Below, one piece after another: positions 55,821-59,856 of a DNA stretch of 64,000 bases; position 1 is the first letter of the stretch; the number at the start of each line of letters is the position of its first letter. This DNA comes from Deltaproteobacteria bacterium (lineage in GTDB: Bacteria > Myxococcota_A > UBA9160 > JAJDAL01): NCBI GenBank assembly GCA_029261875.1, contig JAJDAL010000039.1:1-64000 (forward strand), read 5' to 3'. The notes beneath the pieces are model-generated. The model was not told the DNA's origin. It ran no database searches and saw only the letters and a program-made list of their open reading frames with translations. Both the position numbers and the translations under genes were made by a program.

Positions 55821-57175
55821 ATCCGCACCTGCAACGGCACGTCTGGACGGAGCTGACCTTTACGCGCCTCTTGGTCATGCCCGCGGTCCTCGCGATCGCC
55901 TTCATCTTCGTGGCCGTGGTGACGGACTTTTCGGGTGAACACACGCGACGCACTCTGTCCCAGGCCGCGTTGGTGCTGTTCGTTGCCATCGTTCATGTCT
56001 GGGGATCCCGATTGGCCGCCGACGCGATCTTGCGCGAGTTCATGGAACGAACTTGGGATTGGCAACGGCTTTCCCCCCAGTCACCCGGATCGTTGACTTG
56101 GGGGAAGCTGCTGGGGAGTCCCGTCTATACCTGGTACGGGGGCATCTGGTGCCTCGCGGTATTCTTCCTCACCTCGGACGACTCCATCGGTCTGCGGCTC
56201 CAGAGCGCCGGGCTCCTCTGCGTCGCGGGTCTCGGGGTGCACGCGTCCTCACTGCTCGCGAGTCTACAGACCGCGCGAAAGCTGCGGCTCAGCACGCACA
56301 CCTCCCAAAACGCCTATACACTTCTCTCGCTTCTTTTCGTGTGGGTGTGGTTCTTGGTATTGAGCAACCCGCTCGAATCGGTGCTTTGGTTCGGCCGATC
56401 CTTCGAGCTGATGGATTTCGCGCTGGTAACCGTGGGAGCGTTTACTCTCTGGGCCGTGGTTGGGCTTCACCGCCTCGTGCGCCTCGAGCTCCAAATGCGC
56501 AGCGGTCCGATGGTCTGGGTCGGTTTCGTCGCGTTCCTCTCGACTTTTTCTGCGGGATTCGTTCCCTTTGGCACCACGCATTTGGATGCGGAGCGAATCC
56601 TGTTGGCGCGCGTCGCCATCGCCTATGGCCTGTCCATCGCGTTTGTCTACCTACTCGCATTCGGAGAACTCAAGACCTGGATCCTGTTTCGGCGCCTTGG
56701 CGAATTTTGGCGGAATGGGAATTGGTCGCGCTTCGGTCACGAACTCCCCCTGTTTCTCGTGACATTGGCGTTGGCCGCGCCGATCGCCATCGGGCTGCTG
56801 TTTCTATTTCCGGCTCCGGAAACGGGTGACCGCTCTGGAGACCCGCGGGTCTTGGTGCTCGGGATTCTGTTGCTCGCCACTCGCGATATGGCGCTCCTGC
56901 TCGGGTTCCACTTCGCAGCCAACCCGAGACGCCCCGAGGCTTCATTCCTATTGTGTGCGGCCCTGCTCTACTGGATCCTTCCCTCGATGGCCGAGCGCAT
57001 TCACCCCGTCCTGACGGGACTCTTCTGGCCGACGGCGGGTGGCACTGTGGGGCTCTTGTTCCTTGCCGTCGAAACCCTGGCGGTGGCGGCCTGGGCACGA
57101 GCGCGCTGGACTCGCGTAGCGCGCCAGGGTGAACTGGCGAGTTCACCCGTCTCCTTGCGACACCAAGCCTCTTAG
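55817..57175 (+). CDS. ABC-2-type exporter permease
   Basis: This 452-residue protein has about twelve hydrophobic segments with no cytosolic enzyme domain. It follows the ATPase with a 4-base GTGA overlap and is its likely membrane partner. The N-terminal soluble start (NPHLQRHVWTELTF) resembles the elbow helix of ABC-2 permeases. I see no signature that gives the substrate. Its stop interlocks with that of the convergent nitroreductase (TTAG). Confidence 0.82.
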   Translation: MNPHLQRHVWTELTFTRLLVMPAVLAIAFIFVAVVTDFSGEHTRRTLSQAALVLFVAIVHVWGSRLAADAILREFMERTWDWQRLSPQSPGSLTWGKLLGSPVYTWYGGIWCLAVFFLTSDDSIGLRLQSAGLLCVAGLGVHASSLLASLQTARKLRLSTHTSQNAYTLLSLLFVWVWFLVLSNPLESVLWFGRSFELMDFALVTVGAFTLWAVVGLHRLVRLELQMRSGPMVWVGFVAFLSTFSAGFVPFGTTHLDAERILLARVAIAYGLSIAFVYLLAFGELKTWILFRRLGEFWRNGNWSRFGHELPLFLVTLALAAPIAIGLLFLFPAPETGDRSGDPRVLVLGILLLATRDMALLLGFHFAANPRRPEASFLLCAALLYWILPSMAERIHPVLTGLFWPTAGGTVGLLFLAVETLAVAAWARARWTRVARQGELASSPVSLRHQAS

Positions 57176-57768
57176 AAGGCGGCCTCGCCGAAGCGCGTAC
57201 CGAACACGAACTCGCCCAGCGGCTTGCGGGTGCGCGGGGCGAGATCTCGCTCGCGCAGGTTTTCGGGTAGGGATTCCGCCGGAGCCGCGTAGCCGATGGC
57301 GAGTCCGGTGAAGGCTTCGGATCCTTCGGGGATGGCGTAGAGCTCCGCGGCGCGCTCCGGCAGGATGCCGATCATCTGGTGAACCGCGATGCCGCGCGTC
57401 GTTGCTTCCGCACACAGGTTTCCCGAGGCGAGTCCGAGATCGTGCGGCGCGGCTTTGTTGGGTTTCCCGTTGCGGCGAAACGGGTGGGTGACGATGCCGA
57501 GCGCCAACACCGGCGCCGCCGCGGCCCAGCCCTGATTTCCTTCGACGAGACACGAAAGCAACTTGCCGTGGGCTTCGGCGTCCGCACGCGTCGCCAGGAT
57601 GTAGCTCCAGGGTTGCTCGTTGTAGGAAGAAGCCGCCCAGCGCGCGGCTTCGAACAGGGATCGCAGGTCGTCCGAAGACACGTCCCGGTCCGCGAACGCG
57701 TAGGGGCTGTAGCGATCCGCGAGGACGGATGCGATCGGATGGTCGAGTTGAGCAGCCTTGGCGGACAT
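57172..57768 (-). CDS. Nitroreductase-family flavoprotein
   Basis: This 198-residue FMN protein has the nitroreductase start RYSPYAFADRDVSSDDLRSL, the cofactor contact AARWAASSYNEQPWSYILA, and the middle segment LGLASGNLCAEATTRGIAVH. It reduces nitro compounds, quinones or flavins with NAD(P)H. The start at 57768 has CCAGGAGCC upstream. It lies 23 bases after selD on the same strand, so is probably in the same operon. Confidence 0.9.
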   Translation of the reverse strand: MSAKAAQLDHPIASVLADRYSPYAFADRDVSSDDLRSLFEAARWAASSYNEQPWSYILATRADAEAHGKLLSCLVEGNQGWAAAAPVLALGIVTHPFRRNGKPNKAAPHDLGLASGNLCAEATTRGIAVHQMIGILPERAAELYAIPEGSEAFTGLAIGYAAPAESLPENLRERDLAPRTRKPLGEFVFGTRFGEAAF

Positions 57769-57791: not shown

Positions 57792-58835
57792 TTAGGCGCG
57801 AACTTCGATGCGGCCGGCCGGCCCCGCGATGACTTCGCCGACCTCGGCGTGGGCCGGTGTGCCGCGCTGTTCGAGTTCCGCGAGCAAGGTTCCGACGCGC
57901 TCGGCGGGAACCGCGAGCAACAGACCACCGGACGTCTGCGCGTCGGCGAGTAGCAGTTGGTCGTCGCCGGATACGCGCTCGCCGAATTCGACATGGGGTG
58001 CGGTGTAGTCCGCGTTGCGGCGACTGCCGCCGGGAACCAATCCCTGGGCGACGAGATCGCGCGCAAACGGAAGCAGGGGAATCCGCTCGACGGAAATGCG
58101 CGCCGATACGCCGGATCCCAGCAGGAGGTGGTGGAGGTGCCCCAGGAACCCGAAGCCCGTGACGTCGGTCGCGGCGCGGACACCCGCCCGCAGCGCCGCG
58201 TCCTTGGCGTCGCGGTTCAGCGTCGTCATGACCCGGGTCACGGCAGCGATCTCGGCTTCGCCCAGGGCTTGCTTCTTGATCGCCTGGGCGGAAACGCCGA
58301 TTCCCAGGGGCTTGGTGAGCACCAAACGATCTCCGGGGCGAGCGCCGGTTTGGGTGAGGGCATGTTGCGCGTCCACGGAGCCGATCACGCACAGGCCGTA
58401 TTTGAGCTCCGGGTCGATCACCGTGTGTCCGCCCGCGATCGCGCACCCCGCCTCGGCGGCCTTGTCGCGCCCGCCCCGAAAAATGCGTTCGAGAATTTCC
58501 GAACCGATTTTTCCTTCGGGAAATCCGCACACCGCGAGTGCGACCTGCGGATCGCCCCCCATGGCGTACACGTCGGACAACGCGTTCGCGGCCGCGATCG
58601 CGCCGTAGGTTTCGGGGTCGTCGACGATCGGTGTGATGAAATCGACGGTAAAGGCTAGGGGGGAGCCGTTCGGCGGGCGCACGAGTGCCGCGTCCTCCAT
58701 GCTGCCGACTGCGGTGTCGACCCACGGATGGCGAAAGGGTGCAATCTTCCCCAGGACCTGAACCAGGTCACTCGCGCCCAGCTTGCGCGCTCAGCCGCCG
58801 CCGGGCACGAGTTCGGTCAATCGAACTTCGGCCAT
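57792..58835 (-). CDS. selD: Selenide, water dikinase containing selenocysteine (in-frame TGA)
   Basis: SelD makes selenophosphate, the selenium donor for Sec and selenouridine. Read through the TGA at 58793-58791 as Sec, the gene gives 347 residues, the same length as E. coli SelD. It begins MAEVRLTELVPGGGUARKLG. Sec15 and K18 stand where E. coli has the catalytic C17 and K20. The ATP-binding part follows (TVDFITPIVDDPETYGAIAA, NALSDVYAMGGDPQ). The ATG at 58835 has GTGGAGGGACG upstream. Stopping at the TGA, or starting at the ATG at 58700, would remove the active site. A SECIS-like hairpin lies just after the TGA. The organism must then have SelA, SelB and tRNA-Sec elsewhere. Downstream, nitroreductase follows by 23 bases. 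Confidence 0.95.
58755..58793 (-). promoter_or_regulatory. bacterial SECIS-like element after the selD TGA codon
   Basis: Twenty-one bases after the TGA (58793-58791) the minus strand reads GACCTG-GTT-CAGGTC (58769-58755), a perfect six-pair hairpin. The loop can also be drawn as GGTTC, starting with G as in known bacterial SECIS loops. The distance from TGA to the loop, about 26 bases, is within the usual range. SelB would bind it to decode UGA. Confidence 0.75.
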
Positions 58836-58860: not shown

Positions 58861-59856
58861 TTAGCGACTTGCGGTGGCGGGGAGCAGGCGGCGGAATTCG
58901 AAGCGTGCGGGAACCTTTTCGACGCGCTTTCCCGCGATCTCCGCATAGGGGTAGATGAAGTAGTTGATGGGTTCACCCGCTTGAGGGGGTTCGAGCACCA
59001 GGTCGCGCCCCAATGTAAAGGCGATGCGATCGGAAGGGAGCGCGCCGAAATATTCCTCGATGCGGCCGGACTTCTTCGCCTCACTGGCATCGAAGGGAAA
59101 CCAGCCGCGGGTGGGGTCGTAGACCTCGGCCCAACAGTGGTAGCCGGGAATCGTGCCGTGGGTCTTGTCGTAGGGAATCGGGAAGCCGATCAAGAAGCGG
59201 GCCGGGATCTGCTGACTACGCGCCATTCCGATGAAGAGCGAATGAAAATCGGTGCAGTTGCCGTACTTCGAAGTGCAAGCCCAGATGGCATCGCCCTGGC
59301 CCCAGCCTTCGCCGTGCTTGCTGTACTGCATGGTCTTGACCACGTAGTCGTAGTAGGTGCGGATCTTCTCGCTGTCGTCGGTGATTCCTTGGCCCTCGCG
59401 CACGGCGATCTCGCGAATCAAGCCGTCGAGGGGAATGCGGCGCTGGGATTTCAGATAGCGTGCGGGATCCAGGGGGCCGCCCGCGAGGTTCTTCGAAGCG
59501 GGAACGCCGCGATCCGGACTGCGTTCGACGGTGAAGTGCGCGACGACTTCTTGGGAAGCTCCGGGTTTGGGCGACGCTTCGATGTAGACGATGCGGTTGC
59601 CGAGGGTGTCGAGGGTCTCCCGGTATTCCCACGGAGAATCGATCTTGCTGCTGAGCAGGCGTTGGGCCGTTGATTCCGAGGGCGTCGGGAGCCAGAGCCG
59701 GACCGGTTGTCCGTCGCCAAGTAGCGGCTCCAGATCGACCCGGTAGGTGAACTCGTACCGTGTGGTGTCGTTCCAGCGATCAAAGGCCGCCGCCGGAACG
59801 ATGCCTGCCGCGAACGCAGCCGCGGCCAAAACCCCTGCGAGAATTCGTCGTTTCAT
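58861..59856 (-). CDS. Exported transglutaminase-like protease
   Basis: This 331-residue protein has a signal peptide (AGVLAAAAFAAGIVPAAA) and a transglutaminase core with Cys in YGNCTDFHSLFIG, His in GYHCWAEVYD and Asp in WFPFDAS. Such periplasmic proteins are usually thiol peptidases. The ATG at 59856 is eight bases after TATAGT (59870-59865), with no Shine-Dalgarno sequence, so a leaderless transcript is possible. It ends 25 bases before selD; a link with selenium use is not implied beyond shared transcription. Confidence 0.88.
   Translation of the reverse strand: MKRRILAGVLAAAAFAAGIVPAAAFDRWNDTTRYEFTYRVDLEPLLGDGQPVRLWLPTPSESTAQRLLSSKIDSPWEYRETLDTLGNRIVYIEASPKPGASQEVVAHFTVERSPDRGVPASKNLAGGPLDPARYLKSQRRIPLDGLIREIAVREGQGITDDSEKIRTYYDYVVKTMQYSKHGEGWGQGDAIWACTSKYGNCTDFHSLFIGMARSQQIPARFLIGFPIPYDKTHGTIPGYHCWAEVYDPTRGWFPFDASEAKKSGRIEEYFGALPSDRIAFTLGRDLVLEPPQAGEPINYFIYPYAEIAGKRVEKVPARFEFRRLLPATASR

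Follow-up and report, generated by a model that had tools for sequence, protein, structure and literature searches.

Only one bacterial selenoprotein family is more widespread than selenophosphate synthetase (SelD). In a reference set of 223 genomes, selenocysteine (Sec) was found in 19% of the SelD genes, always at the same position, and the commonest SelD fusion, with an NADH dehydrogenase, carried a Cys-type SelD (PMC4561486). A survey of 2006 found a Sec-containing formate dehydrogenase (FdhA) or SelD in every Sec-decoding bacterium; where FdhA was missing, Sec-SelD was present and, in most cases, the selenouridine trait as well (PMC1794560). Sec-containing SelD enzymes are already well known, and the gene described here, which lies in a window (the whole stretch of DNA analysed) of 64,000 nucleotides, adds another member. 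It resembles the other Sec-SelDs (bacterial SelD and eukaryotic SEPHS2, TIGR00476) in family assignment, in the position of Sec within the N-terminal loop and in a SECIS element placed just downstream. A literature search combining Myxococcota and selenoprotein returned no study of Sec use in the class to which this organism belongs.

Reading frame and gene neighbourhood of selD

The selD frame runs on the minus strand from 58835 to 57792, from ATG to TAA, over 347 codons, and its sole internal stop is a TGA at codon 15 (58793-58791). The product has AIRS and AIRS_C domains and scores above the cut-offs of the SelD equivalog TIGR00476 (E=1.3e-101; 339.9 bits, cut-off 125) and of NF002098 (302.4 bits, cut-off 299). 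The SelD of Escherichia coli (PDB 3u0o, E=3.8e-65) aligns to it across residues 3-344, with K18 on K20 and Sec15 on C17, the E. coli enzyme having Cys where the window protein has Sec. Both the catalytic Cys/Sec and the Lys of the N-terminal loop, by which members of the family are recognized, are present in this way. A Shine-Dalgarno-like GGAGGG (58844-58839, minus strand) stands ahead of the ATG. The first-pass annotation had proposed a SelD selenoprotein of 347 residues with an in-frame TGA at the catalytic Cys position, Sec15 and K18 matching C17 and K20 of E. coli, and a ribosome site ahead of its ATG; the single-TGA frame, the family match, the alignment and the conservation presented below bear it out on all these points.

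It had also warned that standard gene calling would truncate the enzyme, and this is indeed the outcome. If the TGA is taken as a stop, the standard code leaves an ORF of 302 aa (57792-58700, minus strand) that begins at the ATG of 58700 and misses the N-terminal loop and with it the active site. This ATG could be taken as the true start of a truncated SelD-like protein, the upstream reading being due to chance, but the N-terminal 45 residues, including the motif GGUARKL, are conserved across the class and the catalytic residues are located within them, which makes such a start very improbable.

A transglutaminase-like gene lies 25 nt upstream of selD (58861-59856, minus strand; PF01841, E=4e-26; tblastn) and a nitroreductase-family gene 23 nt downstream of its stop (57172-57768, minus strand; PF00881, E=7e-13; tblastn). 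A conserved selD-nitroreductase pair was considered and rejected, the nitroreductase being absent beside selD in the relatives compared (tblastn). The adjacency of the transglutaminase-like gene and selD is kept in the loci L019, L020, L023, L050 and L054 of relatives (tblastn). A codon-usage scan of the window for a second UGA gene gave one site, 337 (plus strand), where one gene seems to end and another to begin (MKAEILTIGDEL...); the site was not retained as a UGA gene on that reading.

Conservation of the UGA and of the downstream hairpin

For a closer comparison we have used 32 distinct close homologues (58-74% identical), made up of 30 loci from the class and two close relatives filed under other phyla. 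Checked residue by residue, codon 15 is TGA in all 32. The source is a draft genome of 60 contigs and single-base errors occur, and the TGA might be a sequencing or assembly error, or a nonsense mutation, in what is really a Cys-SelD or a pseudogene. However, its recurrence in 32/32 homologues from independent assemblies refutes such an error, and the conservation of the coding sequence upstream of a TGA that is the only stop in the frame also argues against it; we give this explanation hardly any weight. At 37-52% identity, the more distant homologues divide into 42 distinct contexts with TGA and 15 with a Cys codon (TGT or TGC), and the family thus displays a typical feature of selenoproteins, an in-frame UGA at a conserved catalytic position with Cys homologues. 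Close Sec-SelD homologues appear in MAGs filed under Planctomycetota and Gemmatimonadetes (L055 and L065), by misbinning or transfer.

Past the TGA, the sequence GACCTG-GTT-CAGGTC (58769-58755, minus strand) forms a hairpin of 6 bp with the loop GUU (58763-58761). A 6-bp hairpin with a G-starting loop had been reported "about 26" bases downstream in the first-pass annotation; it is confirmed and conserved, its stem starting at 22 nt and the G of its loop lying at 28 nt. A stem-loop past the UGA whose first or second loop base is G, another feature of selenoprotein genes, is found here with the loop at +28. Throughout the 32 homologues standard pairs occupy 95.8% of the pair cells, compared with 10-55% when the partner is slid, and the closing pair shows three compensatory changes from G-C to C-G. 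This covariation is modest (matched by 24/500 shuffles). The synonymous codon entropy of codons 22-28, inside which the hairpin lies, is 0.33 of expectation, the minimum of 340 seven-codon windows (median 0.82). The case for the hairpin is a comparative one, in which synonymous constraint is stronger than covariation; folding of the window sequence alone is unexceptional (z = -0.24), and a SECIS match was not found in Rfam at gathering thresholds.

The SECIS was also checked with a hairpin scan equivalent to bSECISearch, run on Sec-SelDs and on Cys-SelD controls. The Cys-SelDs gave mostly no hairpins, or weak ones at scattered positions. The loop starts at +27/28 in 31/32 close homologues; among those whose loop starts at +28 the window stem is the weakest, with 6 perfect pairs where the others mostly have 7-9. 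In the more distant Sec-SelDs the loop starts at +33/34 nt in 28/42 and at about +21 nt in 7. Since the loop start differs between close and more distant Sec-SelDs, the SECIS element occupies several registers (+28, +34 and +21 nt) inside one gene family, by bacterial group, as seen over the 60 nt past the UGA in the loci L018-L127. Most other Sec-SelDs have the loop two codons farther from the UGA than the window gene, a difference slightly beyond the routine.

Decoding machinery and other selenoproteins of the genome

The source assembly (5.68 Mb in a draft of 60 contigs, 94% complete, so that claims of absence are provisional) contains the tRNA-Sec gene selC (C19:23988-24082; SeC in ARAGORN, anticodon TCA), selA (C11:3015-4355; 525 bits, cut-off 267.9) and selB (C27:8065-9960; 314 bits, cut-off 242). 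The set selA, selB and selC, itself a mark of selenoprotein genomes, is present, and the organism is a Sec user, as had been expected from the SelD gene. Its SelB bears the winged helices PF09106 and PF09107; the winged helices of SelB bind the SECIS.

This machinery bears on one further alternative, namely that TGA has been reassigned throughout the genome (e.g., to Trp) and Sec is not involved. The frame is conserved on both sides of the TGA, indicating that it is read through, as reassignment would also have it. However, TGA is the terminal stop of selA, selB, thiE and an ABC ATPase gene and is therefore also a normal stop, the code not being simply reassigned; moreover, the TGAs of the redox proteins described below fall at active-site Cys, not at Trp positions, and the full machinery for Sec (tRNA-Sec, SelA and SelB) is there. 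The probability of a reassigned code appears to us negligible.

The gene almost certainly encodes a selenophosphate synthetase with selenocysteine as catalytic residue 15, its UGA being decoded by Sec-tRNA-Sec. The frame, the alignment, the conservation, the constraint on the hairpin and the machinery in the same genome are all computed observations. What is known of the family suggests that Sec is actually inserted and that the enzyme is active. Its predicted activity is the conversion of ATP and selenide to selenophosphate for Sec synthesis. From selenophosphate SelA would make Sec-tRNA-Sec, and SelB would bind the hairpin (G-U loop starting 28 nt downstream) and deliver Sec-tRNA-Sec to the UGA. 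The selenophosphate would then serve SelD itself as well as the peroxiredoxin- and thioredoxin-like selenoproteins of the genome. A second SelD was not found in the genome; apart from selD, the search matched only a sequence on contig C25, with 33% identity across residues 27-253. SelD synthesis therefore probably depends on its own product, in what the pathway suggests is a positive loop. Since SelD would need its own product to be made, selenium supply is likely to feed back on SelD.

The first-pass annotation had also anticipated further selenoproteins elsewhere, and these were found in the AhpC-TSA family, with 22 matches in the genome, 9 of them with one TGA. In 9/9 the TGA is at the active-site Cys (TPTU, GHWUPYC, GGWUPYC, DWUPF, SWUGC, RWUPFC, FGULFC, FGUPLC and FWUPPC). 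In most of these nine AhpC/TSA or thioredoxin-like loci (L139, L141, L143, L145, L148, L150, L152, L153 and L155) a hairpin with a G loop lies 17-26 nt past the TGA, and the TPTU protein keeps its TGA in seven relatives (63-71% identity). Compared with the Sec peroxiredoxin, ResA-like WAxxUGC and SelL-related families, the UGA redox proteins match NF040737, NF041054 and NF040769, all below the curated cut-offs. The selenoproteome was sampled by family searches, and with at least nine such proteins the organism is selenoprotein-rich. The formate dehydrogenase homologues of the genome are free of TGA and all score below the family cut-off, its single SelW/Rdx homologue is without TGA, a thioredoxin (PF00085) search gave no UGA gene, and the selenouridine synthase MnmH was not found. 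The genome thus fits the FdhA-or-SelD part of the 2006 rule, but without a selenouridine synthase. A standard annotation would list SelD without its active site and cut at least nine redox proteins at the catalytic residue.

Selenocysteine use across the class

The selA gene is found in 84/91 class genomes, and Sec use appears to extend nearly throughout the class. Among the matches listed, a SelD with exactly one internal TGA, 58-73% identical to the window protein, is present in about 30 of the 91 genomes searched and a UGA SelD in 33, all 33 with selA. The NADH-dehydrogenase-SelD fusion is, among the matches listed, the sole SelD found in many selA-bearing genomes of the class. Its SelD domain, which follows an NADH-dehydrogenase-like domain, is shared with the window gene (about 35-44% identical), but the fusion is Cys-type, with Cys at the catalytic position in the fusions inspected, where the window protein has Sec. 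That relatives with only the Cys-type fusion still keep selA is slightly beyond the routine.

UGA formate dehydrogenases were found in about 11 class genomes, again among the matches listed. With 33 genomes having UGA SelD and about 11 UGA formate dehydrogenase, some Cys-fusion genomes seem to have neither, a provisional statement for draft assemblies and the matches listed. Putative UGA redoxins occur among the matches for some Cys-fusion genomes, taken from the TGA-containing matches as listed. A tentative scenario, to which we would give somewhat less than even chances, is that the class keeps Sec decoding mainly for selenium redoxins, sister genomes having swapped Sec-SelD for the Cys fusion and kept selA and UGA redoxins; were these also devoid of Sec-FdhA, the FdhA-or-SelD rule would be broken. 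The class offers a natural comparison of Sec-SelD and Cys-fusion SelD in one lineage. Fusion-type loci include L160-L165, L171 and those of other class genomes, and both SelD forms are found together in some (e.g., G044, G028, G075 and G077).
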